From positions 124,001-188,000 of the forward strand of contig WLXD01000006.1 in assembly GCA_012103255.1 (NCBI GenBank): a stretch of 64,000 nt of DNA, in the 5' to 3' direction. Below are positions 13,023 to 46,284 of this stretch, one piece after another. Source of the DNA: Acidobacteriota bacterium. GTDB lineage: Bacteria; Acidobacteriota; UBA890; WLXD01. The translations under genes and the position numbers were made by a program. The notes under the pieces are model-generated. The model was not told where the DNA came from. It was given only the letters and a program-made list of their open reading frames with translations, and ran no database searches. How positions within the stretch are numbered: the stretch's first letter is position 1; each line of letters starts with the position of its first letter.

Positions 13023-13120
13023 TGGCGGAAGCGCCTGGGGATCGAACCCAGCCAGGACGCCTTCCGGCGCCCCGCAACGGCTTTGAAGGCCGCGGAAGCC
13101 ACCAGACTCCATTCGCTTCC
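13023..13120 (-). tRNA. selC: tRNA-Sec, anticodon TCA
   Basis: Read on the minus strand from 13120, the sequence folds as a selenocysteine tRNA of 95 nt plus encoded CCA (13025-13023). Acceptor GGAAGCG pairs with CGCTTCC, discriminator G. A long D stem (GGAGTC with GGCTTC, loop TGGT), an anticodon stem with loop CTTCAAA (anticodon TCA, reads UGA), a long variable arm (GGGCGCC, loop GGAA, GGCGTCC) and T arm CTGGG-TTCGATC-CCCAG follow. The long variable arm, extended D stem, TCA anticodon and G73 are diagnostic. The expected eighth acceptor pair is A-G and mismatched. It implies selenoproteins and selA/selB/selD elsewhere in the genome. Confidence 0.93.
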
Positions 13121-38836: not shown

Positions 38837-39742
38837 ATGTCATCGAAAGAAACTCCTGATTGGGAAGAGCCAGAACCCGAAGAGGACGAGCCAAGTCCCT
38901 TCAAGATCGCTCTGGGCTTCTTCATTCTCCCGCTCCTGCTGGTCATCGGCGGCATTGGGATCTTTCTGCTGTTCGGCGTACTGGCCCACGAGGACGTTGA
39001 TCCGGCGTCGTACCTCGCTGAAATCAACGGACGCGGAATCAACGAGCCCTGGCAGGCGGCTTTTCATCTTTCGCAGCAATTGCAGTTCAACGACGAACTG
39101 CATGGCGACGAAGACTTCGCCGGCCAGGTGGTGGCAGCGCTCGAGAGCGCCGATGACGACGATCCGCGGATTCAACGCTTCCTCGCCATCGCGCTTGGCC
39201 GCATCGGTCATCCCGTCGCCGTCCCGGCTCTCGTCAACCAGCTCGGAAACGAGGACGACGAGGTCAAGGTCAACACGCTGTGGGCGCTTGGGAATATCGG
39301 CGACCCGGCCGCGGCCGACGCGGTAGCTGGCCTGCTCAACTCCGACCAGGACGACGTCCGCACGATGTCCGCATACGTGCTGGGTGTTCTGGCCTCGCCG
39401 ACAACTGCGGAACGGCTGCAGGTCAGCCTCACGGACCCTGTCCCTGCCGTACGCTGGAACTCCGCCGTTGCCCTCGGGCTGATGGGCGACCGAGCCGGAA
39501 CCGACATGCTCGGCCGCATGATCGACCGTGAACATCTCGCCCAGACACCGGGTGTTCTGGCCGACGATCACGCGACCACGATGTTGGCAGCGCTGGCAGC
39601 ACTTGAGAAACTCGGGCCCATGGGGCTCGACGAACGCCTGGTATTGCTGCGAGAATCCGATCCCGATCCGCGTGTCCGCGCAGCCGCCCGCCGCGTGCTC
39701 GCAGTCCCGCAGACACCCAATTCCGACGAACTAGCGAACTAG
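38837..39742 (+). CDS. Membrane-anchored HEAT-repeat protein
   Basis: From ATG 38837 the protein has 301 residues: an acidic N terminus (EEPEPEEDEP), one membrane helix (about 23-48) and then five or so HEAT-like repeats, e.g. RIQRFLAIALGRIGHPVAVP, VKVNTLWALGNIGDPAAAD, VRTMSAYVLGVLASPTTAE and VRWNSAVALGLMGDRAG. Such repeats make a protein-binding solenoid, here in the periplasm. An upstream in-frame start at 38765 lacks a purpose. It ends 45 nt before the Rieske gene and is likely part of the same operon; a scaffold or assembly role is inferred. Confidence 0.8.
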   Translation: MSSKETPDWEEPEPEEDEPSPFKIALGFFILPLLLVIGGIGIFLLFGVLAHEDVDPASYLAEINGRGINEPWQAAFHLSQQLQFNDELHGDEDFAGQVVAALESADDDDPRIQRFLAIALGRIGHPVAVPALVNQLGNEDDEVKVNTLWALGNIGDPAAADAVAGLLNSDQDDVRTMSAYVLGVLASPTTAERLQVSLTDPVPAVRWNSAVALGLMGDRAGTDMLGRMIDREHLAQTPGVLADDHATTMLAALAALEKLGPMGLDERLVLLRESDPDPRVRAAARRVLAVPQTPNSDELAN

Positions 39743-39787: not shown

Positions 39788-40336
39788 ATGGCCGAAGCCA
39801 AGGCACAGAAAGCCGCAGGAACAGCAGCCGGCACCGGTACCAATCGCCGGGAGTTCCTGGCGTCGTTCCCGTTCGTGACTGCGGCCTGGGTCGCCATGAC
39901 CGGTGCGCTGGCCGGCGTTGGCGCCGCGACCCTGCGTTTCCTCTACCCGAACGTGCTCTACGAGCCGCCGCAACAATTCAAGATCGGATTGCCCACCGAC
40001 TTCCAGGTCGGCGAGGTATCGACTGCGTTCAAGGACCGGTTCGGCGTCTGGGTCGTTCGCAACGACGAGGGTTTCTACGCCCTGATCACCGTCTGCACGC
40101 ACCTGGGTTGCACGCCGAACTGGCTGGCCACCGAGAACAAGTTCAAGTGTCCATGCCACGGAAGCGGTTTCTACTCTTCGGGAATCAACTTCGAAGGTCC
40201 GGCCCCCCGACCGTTGGAGCGCGCAGCGATCGCGCTCGCGGACGACGGCCAGATCCAGGTCGACAAGTCGCAGAAATACCTGTTTGAACAGGGCGGTTGG
40301 GACGATCCCAGCTCGTTCCTCCCCTTTACCGCTTAG
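39788..40336 (+). CDS. petA: Rieske iron-sulfur protein
   Basis: The high-potential [2Fe-2S] subunit of a cytochrome bc complex. The 182-residue protein has a twin-arginine-like N terminus (NRREFLASFPFV) that serves as membrane anchor, and the cluster motifs CTHLGC near residue 101 and CPCHGSGF near 121, supplying two Cys and two His ligands plus the disulfide pair. A GG-type ribosome-binding site (GGGGAG) precedes it. It starts the petABD-like core and is followed after 24 nt by cytochrome b6. Confidence 0.95.
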   Translation: MAEAKAQKAAGTAAGTGTNRREFLASFPFVTAAWVAMTGALAGVGAATLRFLYPNVLYEPPQQFKIGLPTDFQVGEVSTAFKDRFGVWVVRNDEGFYALITVCTHLGCTPNWLATENKFKCPCHGSGFYSSGINFEGPAPRPLERAAIALADDGQIQVDKSQKYLFEQGGWDDPSSFLPFTA

Positions 40337-41237: not shown

Positions 41238-42326
41238 ATGATCGACCTGCTTCGGGGCTTCATGAACTGGCTGTTCGAGCCATCCATCGCGCTCACGCTC
41301 ACCATCGTGGCCGTGTGGGCGCTCTACCGATATCGGCGCGTTTGCACGCAAAACAAGATCGTCGGTGGCCTCATCGTGGCCTCCCCGCTCCTGTTTTTCT
41401 TCTTCTCCGCGTTCGATCCCAACTTCTGGATCCAGTTCAAGCGGCCCGACAACATCCCGATCGCCGGGATGATGTTTCTGGTTGTCTTCTTCACGTGGTT
41501 CGCGCTGAAGCTCGCCGTCGACAACGACGACCGGATTCGCGAGGGGCGCCCGCCGAAGGAAGCCGACCCGGAAGAGGAAGAGAAGGTCTTTGTCTGGCCT
41601 GACCTCGTCTACACCGAACTCCTGTGCCTCCTGCTCGTCAGCATCCTTTTGGTCGTCTGGTCGATCCTGATCCCAGCGCCACTGGAGGAGCCTGCCAACC
41701 CGCAGCTGACCCCGAACCCCTCGAAGGCACCGTGGTATTTCCTGGGCCTGCAGGAAATTCTCGTCTACTTCGATCCGTGGCTCGCGGGGGTGGTCATCCC
41801 TACGTTCATCATCATCGGGCTCATGGCGATCCCGTATATCGATACGAACGAAAAGGGCAACGGCTACTACACGTACGAAGAACGAAAATCAGAGATATTC
41901 CTGTTCCAGTTCGGCTTCATCGTCCTCTGGGTGTTCCTCGTCTTTGAGGGCACATTCCTGCGCGGACCCAACTGGAACTTCTATGGACCGTACGAGTACT
42001 GGGACCCGCACAAACTTGTGCCGCTGACGAACATCAACCTCTCCGAAGTCCTGTGGGCTCGATGGTTGGGTATCGGCCTGCCGAGCTTCTGGCTGGTCCG
42101 CGAGTTCGTCGGCATTGTCCTGATGCTCCTGTATTTCGTTGCGCTCCCCGTCTGGCTGGCGCGCGGTTTCCTGCGCCGCTACTACGACCAGATGGGCCTG
42201 ATGCGCTACGTGATCTTCAGCCACCTGTTGCTCTGGATGGTGATGATTCCCATCAAGATGTATCTACGGTGGACGATCAATCTGAAGTATTTCGTCGCGA
42301 TTCCCGAGTTGCTGTTTAACATCTGA
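41238..42326 (+). CDS. petD: Subunit IV-like C-terminal half of cytochrome b, extended
   Basis: A 362-residue protein with about eight hydrophobic segments, much longer than the 160-residue subunit IV of b6f. The Qo-site region NPSKAPWYFLGLQEI (about 160-174) is conserved, but the canonical PEWY is replaced by APWY, lacking the proton-accepting Glu. An additional N-terminal helix pair and C-terminal helices (IVLMLLYFVALPVW, LLLWMVMIPIKMY) extend the protein. It lies 40 nt after petB. It forms the quinol-oxidising core with the Rieske and b6 subunits. Confidence 0.88.
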   Translation: MIDLLRGFMNWLFEPSIALTLTIVAVWALYRYRRVCTQNKIVGGLIVASPLLFFFFSAFDPNFWIQFKRPDNIPIAGMMFLVVFFTWFALKLAVDNDDRIREGRPPKEADPEEEEKVFVWPDLVYTELLCLLLVSILLVVWSILIPAPLEEPANPQLTPNPSKAPWYFLGLQEILVYFDPWLAGVVIPTFIIIGLMAIPYIDTNEKGNGYYTYEERKSEIFLFQFGFIVLWVFLVFEGTFLRGPNWNFYGPYEYWDPHKLVPLTNINLSEVLWARWLGIGLPSFWLVREFVGIVLMLLYFVALPVWLARGFLRRYYDQMGLMRYVIFSHLLLWMVMIPIKMYLRWTINLKYFVAIPELLFNI

Positions 42327-42341: not shown

Positions 42342-42368
42342 CGAACACGGGGCCTGCTCCCGTGTTCG
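42342..42368 (+). other. Perfect hairpin between petD and the multiheme cytochrome gene
   Basis: A perfect 10-bp stem, CGAACACGGG (42342-42351) and CCCGTGTTCG (42359-42368), loop GCCTGCT, followed by TGAATAACC with no T run. It sits between the petD stop and the next ribosome-binding site (GAGGGG before 42390). It is too T-poor for a typical terminator; an mRNA-processing or stability element that sets subunit ratio is possible. Confidence 0.5.
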
Positions 42369-42389: not shown

Positions 42390-45281
42390 ATGGCCAAGAA
42401 GAAACGCAAAGGCGTATTCGCCCACGACATCGATCGGCTCAACATGTGGTTCGCGATCATTGCGATCGCGGCATTCACGAGCGTTCTGTGGATGATCTGG
42501 GATGACTACGCGCGCCCGTGGAAGGCATATCAACGCCAGTTCCAGGTCGTTCAGAACGAGGTGACGCAGCAACAACTGGCCGACGAGCAGGCACGCGTCG
42601 ACCAACAGGCGCTGTCTCAACTGCGTCAGCAGCGCGACGCCGCTGAGCAGACGCTCTCGGGCCAGTCGGAACAGATCGGCGGACTCGAAGACGAGATTGC
42701 CGCGAAGCAGACTCGGCTCGACCTCGCGGACCAGAACTTCCGTTTCTCGCGTTCGGTGTTCGACACCCGGCGTTGGGAATTCGAGGAAGCCCGCAAGCAC
42801 CATGGTGAAGAAGGTGCCGCGGCGGAACGCGAAGCGCTTGACCTCGCTGATGCCGAGGTGGAGCAGTACCGCCTCGAGTTGGAAGCGCTGACGCTCGAAC
42901 GCGACGCGCTGCAGACCCAACTCTCGGCCCTCACCGACGCCAGGGATGCCGCCACGAGCGAAATCACGGGTATGACCCGCGAGATCGATCGACTGCAAGA
43001 CCGTCTCGACGGGCTGCGCTTCGACTGGGTCTACTACCTCCGGAATGGTCCGTTCATGGACGGACTGAACCCGTCCGAACGAATCAATCAGGTCGTGCTC
43101 GACGACATCCGGATGGACCTGAACTTCACGGACGCCCCGCAAGTCGACCGCTGCCAGTCCTGCCATCTCGGCATGGCGTCCGCGGACTACGAGAACTACG
43201 ACCAACCCTTCACAAGCCACCCTCGGCTGGACCTGTTTGTGGCAGACACGTCGATCCATCCCGCGGGCGACTTCGGTTGCTCCGTTTGTCACGGCGGTAA
43301 GGGCCACGCAACGACCTTTTACTCGTCGGTTCACACTCCCGACAATGAGAGCGAAGAAGAGCGCTGGACGCACGACCTTGGATGGGGCGAGATCCATCTG
43401 TGGGAATGGCCGATGCGCACGAGCGGCGATATCGAAGCCTCATGCGTGAAGTGCCATATGGAGGATCCGTGGCTGCCTGAATCTCCTAAGCTCGAGTATG
43501 GGCTCGAGTTGGTTGAGAATCTGGGCTGCTCGGGCTGCCACCAGATCGATCGCTTCGACGATGATCGCAAGCGGGGTCCCGATCTCACGCGGATTGGCGC
43601 CAAGACAGGCGCCGATTGGGCCTACAACTGGGTTATGGACCCGAAGTCCTTCCGCCCCGAAACGTCCATGCCGCAGTTCTTCAACCTGGCGAACACGTCT
43701 GACGCCTATTGGACGGGCCGCAACCAGGTCGAAGCTGAGGCCATCGTCTCGTACCTGTTTGCGAGCAGCTCCGACGTGGAGCTCGATTCCGCCCCCAACG
43801 GCGACATCGCGCGCGGCGAGAATCTCGTTGAATCGGTCGGCTGCCTTGGCTGCCACATGGTGGGCGACTACTCCCCCGCCACCGAATACGACCCGAACAC
43901 GGCGCGCTTCTCGGGCTACCGCCATCACGGACCGGACCTCGACGGCGTGGGCTCAAAGGTCAGCGCCGATTGGCTCTACACCTGGGTTAAGGATCCGCAG
44001 CACTACTGGGCCGAGACCGTGATGCCCGACCTTCGCCTCACCGACGGCGAAGCAGCTGATATCACGGCCTACCTGATGAGCCTGACGCATGACACGTTCG
44101 CGGCCGCGACGATGCCGACCGTGGACGCTTCCCTGCGTTCAGATGTCGCGCTCGAGTATCTGCAGCAGCAGATGCCCACTCAGGCCGCCGCGGACCAGTT
44201 GGCCGCGATGGACGAAGACGCGACCAAGCTCTACCTCGGTGAGCGACTCATCGCCCGCTACGGCTGCTCCGGCTGCCACGTTGTCCCGGGCTTCGAGGAC
44301 GCCGGAAGGATCGGCACTAGTCTCTCGGAGTGGGGTAGCAAGGCCGTTGCCCGTCTCGATTTCGGCCTCCTGGATCTCCCGCACGATCGACGCACTTTCC
44401 TGGAGCAGAAACTCCGGTCTCCGCGTAGCTATGACGATGGTCGCGAGAGGAACCCGCAGGAACTTCTGCGGATGCCGGACTTCGACCTAACGGCCGAAGA
44501 AATCGACGCCATCGCGGTGGCAATCCTGGGCTTCACGGACCAGGAAATGCGACCGGCCGCCAAGCCCGCCGAGACGCCGCGCCGTCTTGCCGTGCTCGAG
44601 GGCCAGGCGATCGCTGACAAGTTCAACTGCCGTGGTTGCCACCTCCTGGAGGACAACGGCGGCGCGATTCGCACGGTCATCGCAGACGAAATGGTCGAGC
44701 GCGGTGTCGTGAACAACGCCACTGCCGGTCTGGCGTTCGGTCCGCCGAACCTGCGGTCGCAGGGCGCCCGCGTACAGCCAGCTTGGCTCTACGACTTCTT
44801 CACCGAGCCTTCGACCGTACGGCCGTGGCTCGATGTTCGGATGCCAACGTTCCCGTTCACCGACCACGAACTGAACGCGCTCACGGCCTACTTCGCCGCC
44901 CTCGACGAGGTTCCCTACCCGTTCGAGTCGTCGTTTACCACGGCGCATTCGTACCCGGCTGACCTCGTGAGCGAGGGTCGCGAACTTGCGGCGGATCAGA
45001 GCGGTTCGCTGCAGTGCTTCTCCTGCCATTTCCGCGGCACCCAGGAACCGCGCGTGCCGCCGTCACAGTGGGCGCCGGACCTGGCGCTCGCAGCCTCACG
45101 ACTCCGGCCCGAATGGATCGACGGCTGGATCAAGGATCCGCAGGGACTTCAGCCGGGCACCAGCATGCCGCAGTTCTACACCTCGCTCGAGGCTGGACGA
45201 GGCTTCTGGGGCCCGCTTAACAACGATCCCCAGGCAGAGATCGACGCTCTCGTGGCTTACATCATGAGCCTCGGGAACTGA
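42390..45281 (+). CDS. Membrane-anchored octaheme cytochrome c with coiled-coil N terminus
   Basis: A 963-residue protein. One membrane helix (about residues 23-42) is followed by a long coiled coil (about 50-220, rich in Gln/Glu/Arg) and then a large periplasmic part with eight CxxCH heme sites: CQSCH (~255), CSVCH (~297), CVKCH (~352), CSGCH (~380), CLGCH (~484), CSGCH (~625), CRGCH (~747) and CFSCH (~876). Several repeat a c-type module with a later M-P axial-ligand region (TSMPQFF, ETVMPDLR, VRMPTFP, TSMPQFY). It replaces the simple cytochrome c1/f of ordinary complexes and probably passes electrons from the Rieske protein to soluble carriers. Confidence 0.9.
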   Translation: MAKKKRKGVFAHDIDRLNMWFAIIAIAAFTSVLWMIWDDYARPWKAYQRQFQVVQNEVTQQQLADEQARVDQQALSQLRQQRDAAEQTLSGQSEQIGGLEDEIAAKQTRLDLADQNFRFSRSVFDTRRWEFEEARKHHGEEGAAAEREALDLADAEVEQYRLELEALTLERDALQTQLSALTDARDAATSEITGMTREIDRLQDRLDGLRFDWVYYLRNGPFMDGLNPSERINQVVLDDIRMDLNFTDAPQVDRCQSCHLGMASADYENYDQPFTSHPRLDLFVADTSIHPAGDFGCSVCHGGKGHATTFYSSVHTPDNESEEERWTHDLGWGEIHLWEWPMRTSGDIEASCVKCHMEDPWLPESPKLEYGLELVENLGCSGCHQIDRFDDDRKRGPDLTRIGAKTGADWAYNWVMDPKSFRPETSMPQFFNLANTSDAYWTGRNQVEAEAIVSYLFASSSDVELDSAPNGDIARGENLVESVGCLGCHMVGDYSPATEYDPNTARFSGYRHHGPDLDGVGSKVSADWLYTWVKDPQHYWAETVMPDLRLTDGEAADITAYLMSLTHDTFAAATMPTVDASLRSDVALEYLQQQMPTQAAADQLAAMDEDATKLYLGERLIARYGCSGCHVVPGFEDAGRIGTSLSEWGSKAVARLDFGLLDLPHDRRTFLEQKLRSPRSYDDGRERNPQELLRMPDFDLTAEEIDAIAVAILGFTDQEMRPAAKPAETPRRLAVLEGQAIADKFNCRGCHLLEDNGGAIRTVIADEMVERGVVNNATAGLAFGPPNLRSQGARVQPAWLYDFFTEPSTVRPWLDVRMPTFPFTDHELNALTAYFAALDEVPYPFESSFTTAHSYPADLVSEGRELAADQSGSLQCFSCHFRGTQEPRVPPSQWAPDLALAASRLRPEWIDGWIKDPQGLQPGTSMPQFYTSLEAGRGFWGPLNNDPQAEIDALVAYIMSLGN

Positions 45282-45431: not shown

Positions 45432-46202
45432 ATGCATTTGCGTAAGATCGCAGCTCTAGCGCTGCTGGTCCCGTTTGCTGCCGCGTGCGGCGGCGGTGAA
45501 GATGCCCCCGCGGCCGCGGCGCCAGCCACCGCCGAACCTGCGGCGACCGCGCCGGACCTCAGCAACGCGGGCGGCGTCGCCGGCGCGGTGATGTTCGCGG
45601 GCGAGGCACCGGGTGCCGAAGCCATTCAGATGGCAGCGGATCCGTTCTGCCAGACAGCTCACAGTGATGCCGTGATGAGCGCCCCGGTGATGACCGATGC
45701 CGCCGGCGGACTGATGAACGTGGTCGTCCACGTTTCGAGCGGCCTCGAGAACTACTCGTTCGATGCGGCGACGGACCAGGCGATCCTGGATCAGAGCGGC
45801 TGCGTTTACGATCCGCACGTCCTCGCTATGCAGACCGGGCAGACGGTCATTATCCGCAACAGCGACGACACGCTGCATAACGTGAACGTGCAGCCCAGCA
45901 GCAACCCGGCGTTTAACCAGGGGCAGCCTCTCGCGGGCATGGAAATCGAGAAGATCTTCGACAGCGCCGAGGTCGGTATCCCGGCACGTTGCGATGTTCA
46001 CCCCTGGATGGGCGCGTTCATCTCGGTCTTCGACCACCCGTACTTCTCGGTGTCTGCCACCGACGGCGCGTTCTCGATCGCGCAGTTGCCTCCTGGCGAC
46101 TACGTCCTCGAGGCGTGGCACGAGACGCTTGGCACGATGACGCAGAGCGTCACCGTGGCTCCGAACGAGACTGCTTCGGTCAGCTTCGAGTTCGGCAGCT
46201 AG
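45432..46202 (+). CDS. Cupredoxin-like lipoprotein
   Basis: A 256-residue exported protein with signal peptide and lipobox (FAAACG, Cys near 19), an Ala/Pro-rich linker, and a plastocyanin/azurin-like domain. Type-1 copper ligands are visible as His in DTLHNVNV near residue 155 and C-D-V-H-P-W-M near 187-193 (Cys, His, Met). The C-terminal part (SATDGAFSIAQLPPGDYVLEA) is a beta domain like carboxypeptidase regulatory repeats. Its place between the cytochrome bc and oxidase-maturation genes suggests an electron carrier or copper donor. The ATG has a GGAG site (GGAGTGAAGG) just upstream. Confidence 0.8.
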   Translation: MHLRKIAALALLVPFAAACGGGEDAPAAAAPATAEPAATAPDLSNAGGVAGAVMFAGEAPGAEAIQMAADPFCQTAHSDAVMSAPVMTDAAGGLMNVVVHVSSGLENYSFDAATDQAILDQSGCVYDPHVLAMQTGQTVIIRNSDDTLHNVNVQPSSNPAFNQGQPLAGMEIEKIFDSAEVGIPARCDVHPWMGAFISVFDHPYFSVSATDGAFSIAQLPPGDYVLEAWHETLGTMTQSVTVAPNETASVSFEFGS

Positions 46203-46246
46203 TCGAATCGCGGTGGGCGAAGCCCCTCGCAATTTCGGTTCTGACG

Positions 46247-46284
46247 GTCGGCGTCCCGCACCGAGCGGGGCGCCGACTTTGTTT
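46247..46284 (+). terminator. Strong terminator after the cupredoxin gene
   Basis: GTCGGCG-T-CCCGC (46247-46259) pairs with GCGGG-G-CGCCGAC (46265-46277) around a single mismatch, loop ACCGA, followed by TTTGTTT. This is the clearest intrinsic terminator in the window. It would end the cupredoxin transcript and implies a separate or read-through promoter for cyoE. Confidence 0.75.

Follow-up and report, generated by a model that had tools for sequence, protein, structure and literature searches.

An octaheme cytochrome c as the putative c-type subunit of a b6f-like Complex III in Acidobacteriota, with a predicted coiled-coil hairpin

The octaheme cytochrome c encoded in the window, the whole 64,000 nt stretch of acidobacterial DNA analysed here, is probably the c-type subunit, on the periplasmic side, of a quinol-oxidising Complex III of b6f-like type, which would pass electrons on to a small periplasmic carrier and whose coiled coil would form a returning hairpin. 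It is encoded by the fifth gene of an operon in the order HEAT-repeat protein, Rieske protein, cytochrome b6, subunit IV, octaheme cytochrome and cupredoxin lipoprotein (Table 1). The first-pass annotation had proposed that the octaheme protein replaces cytochrome c1 or f; that it stands in for these subunits is supported, because the operon combines Rieske, cytochrome b6 and subunit IV genes, neither cytochrome c1 (PF02167) nor cytochrome f (PF16639) gives a profile match in the genome, and the gene order is conserved throughout the phylum.

Table 1. Features of the octaheme operon, in positions of the window; residue numbers are those of the respective protein.
Feature	Position	Strand	Evidence
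HEAT-repeat protein, one membrane helix, first operon gene	38837..39742	+	PF13646, E 1.4e-25
Rieske [2Fe-2S] protein, CTHLGC...CPCHGSG	39788..40336	+	PF00355, E 1.8e-9; motifs kept in 22 sequences
Cytochrome b6-like subunit, four TM helices	40361..41197	+	PF00033, E 6.4e-38; aligned to solved cytochrome b6
Subunit IV (petD-like), enlarged	41238..42326	+	PF00032, E 1.1e-6; alignment to solved subunit IV
Octaheme cytochrome c subunit, 963 aa	42390..45281	+	ORF reading, family alignment
N-terminal transmembrane helix, residues 19-37	42444..42500	+	Hydropathy 2.02; inside model helix 9-142
Predicted antiparallel coiled-coil hairpin, helix to residue 142, break 143, helix 144-225	42513..43064	+	AlphaFold2, covariation, constant length, Gly cluster
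Triheme module, CxxCH 255/297/352, candidate distal His277/His290/His315	43146..43466	+	Conservation; Pfam C7/C554-like matches
Five class-I-like cytochrome c modules, CxxCH 380/485/626/747/876, candidate distal Met427/545/695/818/926	43518..45278	+	Invariant Met-Pro; PF00034
Cupredoxin, lipoprotein-like, candidate type-1 Cu ligands His149/Cys187/His190/Met193	45432..46202	+	Conservation; weak alignment to blue-copper domains
Intrinsic-terminator-like stem after cupredoxin	46246..46278	+	14 pairs, 11 GC; folding z -2.8

The octaheme reading frame begins with an ATG preceded by a Shine-Dalgarno-like GAGGGG. All 16 cysteines of the protein lie within its eight CxxCH motifs, of which 0.0066 would be expected from composition and at most one occurred in 20,000 shuffles. 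There is a single hydrophobic segment, with a Lys/Arg-rich N-terminus ahead of it; by the positive-inside rule, the N-terminus should therefore be cytoplasmic and the remainder of the protein periplasmic. The first-pass description of one membrane helix, a long helical region and eight CxxCH sites in 963 residues is thus confirmed by the reading frame, hydropathy, AlphaFold2 and shuffling, as is the position of the gene directly after petD, the preceding gene being that of subunit IV. Class-I cytochrome c domains account for the C-terminal two thirds (PF00034 in three stretches, E 2.8e-28), and weak C7/C554-like matches cover residues ~286-385. In the PDB, profile matches are limited to individual cytochrome c domains, and NCBIfam has no model that covers the protein.

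Ligand conservation was scored in 59 members of the long form, among which all CxxCH motifs and distal candidates, comprising 16 axial ligands, are essentially invariant. His277 and His290 are present in 59/59, and His315 in all 58 sequences having a residue at that position, whilst the distal Met of each of the last five hemes precedes a Pro (Met-Pro in 58-59/59). The exceptions are one member without the second heme stretch and one with Glu at position 926. Two entries of one relative (L007:851-3682 and L019:574-3405) have seven CxxCH motifs, with the second heme stretch missing, perhaps owing to an assembly fault. Conservation of this kind suggests a heme order of three bis-His sites followed by five His/Met, class-I-like sites. 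An AlphaFold2 model of the whole protein, built from six sequences, had a pLDDT of 42, too low to judge the placement of the hemes or the distances between them.

The cytochrome b6-like subunit aligns with solved b6 structures such that its second His pair (242/257) has the 14-residue spacing, and Cys71 occupies the position of b6 Cys35, which carries heme cn. This Cys is kept in the 950-aa subfamily of loci; the 600-aa subfamily, and the 1100-aa subfamily for the most part, have Gly instead. A conserved N.flHlHP motif (His53/His55) precedes the first TM helix, and the placement of Arg260 is close to that in a Kuenenia site where an additional b heme is predicted to sit at the interface of the dimer. 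The exact His/Arg spacing of that central heme (204) is absent from the cytochrome b, in which the nearest pair, His55-Arg260, is 205 apart and suggestive only. Subunit IV has about eight TM-like segments by hydropathy, three N-terminal and two C-terminal of them additional to petD; these additions have no match in Pfam. Its Qo motif reads KAPWYFLGLQE instead of PEWY, and APWY is found in 41/41 sequences, including its own. In the gap between the subunit IV and octaheme genes, a 10-bp perfect inverted repeat lacking a T-run (42342-42368) was considered as a regulatory hairpin and rejected, being absent in the related locus L005 and not unusual by shuffling.

At the ends of the operon, the HEAT gene is kept upstream of the Rieske gene in the 950-aa subfamily (L005, L008, L009, L053-L058), and the ligand motifs HN and C..H.WM of the cupredoxin are kept in 23 sequences; this protein, the probable electron acceptor, has a carboxypeptidase-regulatory-like domain (PF13620) at its C-terminus. 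The terminator-like stem that follows likely marks the end of the operon, beyond which lie ctaB and then a DUF420 gene. Elsewhere in the window there is a selenocysteine tRNA gene (Rfam RF01852) at 13027-13120 on the minus strand.

Relatives were searched for in 297 genomes, all Acidobacteriota, of which 159 contain some match to the octaheme protein and about 40 contain relatives aligning over essentially its whole length. Identity is 58-79% in the named relatives, which come from metagenome-assembled genomes of the phylum, and 37-43% for full-length matches in distant families; the viral contigs and plasmids searched gave no relatives. Every fetched locus with enough flanking sequence has the order cytochrome b, subunit IV, octaheme. 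The subunit occurs in three forms, of ~950 aa, ~1050-1200 aa and ~550-700 aa. The ~1050-1200-aa form also has eight hemes, and in one branch, with proteins of about 1100-1200 aa (L042-L046, L059), a further coiled-coil stretch of ~75 residues is inserted after heme 4, ahead of the Met ligand of that heme. The ~550-700-aa form has seven or eight hemes and a linker of ~53 residues from the membrane helix to heme 1; it is found in Rieske/cytb operons, several times behind a fused cytochrome b-subunit IV gene. In a tree of the heme part, 57/58 long forms fall into one clade (SH-aLRT 97), together with L093, a shortened member; L092, the 58th long form, lies among the short forms on a long branch.

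The region between the membrane helix and the hemes had been described as a coiled coil of about 170 residues acting as a stalk. The helical region is real, spanning residues ~42-225, but it is predicted to form a two-helix hairpin of about 180 residues and not a single stalk. In an AlphaFold2 model of residues 1-264, built from seven sequences, helices extend over residues 9-142 and 144-225, with pLDDT values of 92-98 over residues 71-200, and almost every relative has Gly at about positions 137-143. The periodicity of hydrophobic residues is near 3.5, clearly so for residues 145-210 (family mean, p 0.0005); for helix 1 alone, the coiled-coil periodicity is marginal and not significant (p 0.08-0.10). 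Among 34 non-redundant sequences, hydrophobic covariation is strongest on the antidiagonal i+j=280 (permutation p 0.005; 0.0025 in a stricter set, the permutations controlling for relatedness only partly), as expected for an antiparallel hairpin turning at residue 140; in the same sequences opposite charges follow the heptad comb (p 0.02), and a parallel arrangement of the helices gives no covariation signal (p 0.5). The distance from the conserved Trp44 to Cys255 has a median of 211 residues and lies within 205-215 in 55/58 members, and identity in the spacer is only ~30%, versus 42% in the heme part. Foldseek matches in the PDB are to generic coiled-coil hairpins (SMC arms, the colicin E2 receptor domain and EmrA) with E > 0.001, which fit the shape without showing homology. 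The coiled coil is therefore best described as a predicted antiparallel hairpin of fixed length.

If the coiled coil were instead a parallel dimeric or trimeric stalk, the hemes would be held far out, as in a periplasm-spanning wire or an extracellular electron link, both of which had been suggested by the first-pass annotation. The single membrane helix, the long helical region and the eight hemes are all real features in keeping with this, and we estimate that an upright helix 1 could by itself extend some 150 A out from the membrane. However, the helix-break-helix prediction, with its break at 143, is of high confidence, and the covariation is antiparallel. At 1.5 A per residue, helix 1 would run ~104 residues past the membrane and helix 2 would return 82, so that, with the hairpin upright, heme 1 would lie some 30-35 A out from the membrane. 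Related subunits without the hairpin have the same heme domain with only the ~53-residue linker before heme 1, which provides an independent second argument against a remote stalk. Given the predicted hairpin, its near-constant length and these short-linker relatives, the hemes probably return toward the complex rather than being held far out, and the periplasm-spanning wire is unsupported. An extracellular link is similarly disfavoured: no porin or outer-membrane cytochrome gene is present among the annotated operon genes or their neighbours, the operon ends with a cupredoxin, and the OmcA/MtrC decaheme profile (TIGR03507) scores 13.3 bits against a cut-off of 209.3. Overall, we regard a parallel stalk as quite improbable.

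Two further readings concern the function of the complex. It might be specialised for bifurcation or reverse electron flow, in the manner of the NAD(P)-linked complexes proposed in Kuenenia, rather than being a plain quinol:cytochrome c/cupredoxin oxidoreductase. The operon shares with Kuenenia the split b6/subunit IV genes, the enlarged subunit IV and the octaheme cytochrome c, the spacing of His53/His55 and Arg260 is near that of the His/Arg pair of the predicted Kuenenia heme, and the Kuenenia complexes have been proposed to reduce NAD(P) (PMC12954380). Such a role is nevertheless unlikely here, as neither the annotated genes of the operon nor its direct neighbours include a flavoprotein or NAD(P) oxidoreductase gene, the operon ending with the cupredoxin, followed by ctaB and the DUF420 gene; an acidobacterial cytochrome bc complex, the type of which may differ from this one, is also upregulated under oxic conditions together with a caa3 oxidase (PMC10564751). 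The octaheme protein could otherwise be a separate HAO- or c554-like multiheme enzyme merely encoded beside bc genes, given that multiheme enzymes adjoin Rieske/cytb genes elsewhere, including at a second locus of the same genome with a PF13447 octaheme and a NapA-like protein, and given the weak C554/C7 matches at residues 286-385. PF13447 is, however, absent from its Pfam matches at E values up to 0.1, whilst the octaheme of that second locus matches at 2.2e-23; the five Met-ligated class-I modules leave no pentacoordinate catalytic heme; and the linkage to cytb and subunit IV is strict throughout the phylum, as is the membrane anchor. A separate enzyme is hence very improbable indeed.

For the quinol oxidase with a returning hairpin that we favour, we infer an electron route, partners and a hairpin function as follows. 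Quinol, probably menaquinol, would be oxidised at the Qo site formed by cytochrome b6 and subunit IV. One electron would go back via the b hemes, plus heme cn where Cys71 is present, whilst the other would reach the octaheme subunit by way of the Rieske head domain; in this subunit the five His/Met and three bis-His hemes may spread or store electrons. The subunit would then reduce a small periplasmic carrier, most likely the operon cupredoxin or a monoheme cytochrome c, that supplies aa3/caa3-type oxidases. Bis-His hemes often have potentials below that of the Rieske cluster, and a path through hemes 1-3 thus counts against this explanation. The hairpin between the membrane anchor and the hemes would bring the heme domain back to the complex, and may serve as an arm or a brace, with the Rieske protein, the second monomer and an oxidase as conceivable points of contact. 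It is possible, if somewhat doubtful, that in Complex III of this kind, and there only, the hairpin works as a structural clamp or ruler: by reaching across the dimer or over the Rieske protein, or by docking an oxidase, it would set the chain of three bis-His and five His/Met hemes in a defined place. The subunit would then accept electrons from the Rieske head and also act as an output arm that stores several electrons, in much of this major phylum of soil bacteria.

The genome encodes three CuA heme-copper oxidases and several cytochrome c domains. On contig C2, L106 and L109 contain ACIII genes (ActD, NrfD, a 1017-aa Mo/FeS protein and a multiheme cytochrome c) adjoining a caa3 oxidase to which a cytochrome c domain is fused. 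A second Rieske/cytb locus, on contig C1 (L041:4624-10926), includes an HAO-like octaheme (PF13447), a NapA-like molybdopterin oxidoreductase and a tetraheme protein, a locus reminiscent of the Caldithrix Nap cluster with its Rieske/cytb genes (PMC5317091). Hence the studied locus is one of three quinol-oxidising systems of the genome, and the presence of ACIII with caa3 means that the octaheme complex may have a specialised role.

The earlier statement that no protein of this exact architecture had been described went too far. Operons of b6f-like type with an adjacent octaheme cytochrome are reported for Nitrospina gracilis, Kuenenia stuttgartiensis and Methylomirabilis oxyfera (PMC3578206), and modelling of Kustd1485 of Kuenenia gave long alpha-helices wrapping the complex (PMC12954380); because of these parallels, an octaheme in place of c1 or f is not a new idea, and a long-helix version has already been described from modelling. 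The possibility that this is a common, characterised cytochrome subunit, which the first-pass annotation set against its own reading, is borne out in that the layout is common in the phylum, but we found no experimental characterisation of such an octaheme subunit in the literature. The present analysis adds that the subunit occurs throughout the Acidobacteriota, that its 3+5 ligand set is essentially invariant and that the hairpin keeps a fixed length; it further adds the relatives lacking a hairpin, the APWY motif, and HEAT and cupredoxin proteins as partners. Few soil bacteria are commoner than the Acidobacteriota, and their Complex III is labelled 'cytochrome bc1' in one paper on respiration (PMC8407424), as against the b6f-like complex with an eight-heme subunit indicated by this gene. 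The known range of octaheme bc complexes is widened beyond nitrogen-cycle bacteria, the ligand pattern predicts two classes of heme within one subunit, and the conserved hairpin length, together with the hairpin-less subunits, makes the role of the coiled coil testable by structure.

The closest parallels are the systems of Nitrospina, Kuenenia and Methylomirabilis, which, as far as the available part of PMC3578206 goes, share the split cytochrome b6 and subunit IV, the Rieske protein and an octaheme as the only adjacent c-type gene, a likeness of gene layout and not of compared octaheme sequences. The acidobacterial operon differs in its host phylum and in the upstream HEAT and downstream cupredoxin genes seen here; that part of the source gives neither a ligand set nor a coiled coil for its octahemes. 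Compared by description, Kustd1480-1485 and Kuste4569-4574 (PMC12954380) also have a large multiheme cytochrome c with a TM helix, extra TM helices in subunit IV (five TM helices reported, versus about eight TM-like segments here) and a b6-like cytochrome b, but include NAD(P) oxidoreductase subunits, which are absent from the acidobacterial operon. With canonical bc1 and b6f complexes the operon shares Rieske, cytochrome b6 and subunit IV, the 14-residue His spacing and heme cn Cys being as in b6f; it departs from them in having the octaheme for c1 or f, APWY for PEWY and an enlarged subunit IV. The multiheme subunit also recalls the pentaheme ActA, and ActE, of ACIII as a multiheme periplasmic entry point for quinol oxidation, one octaheme class-I cytochrome c domain being a distant profile match to 6btm_A; the membrane subunits of ACIII differ, however, with NrfD and no Rieske or cytb, and ACIII is encoded separately in this genome.
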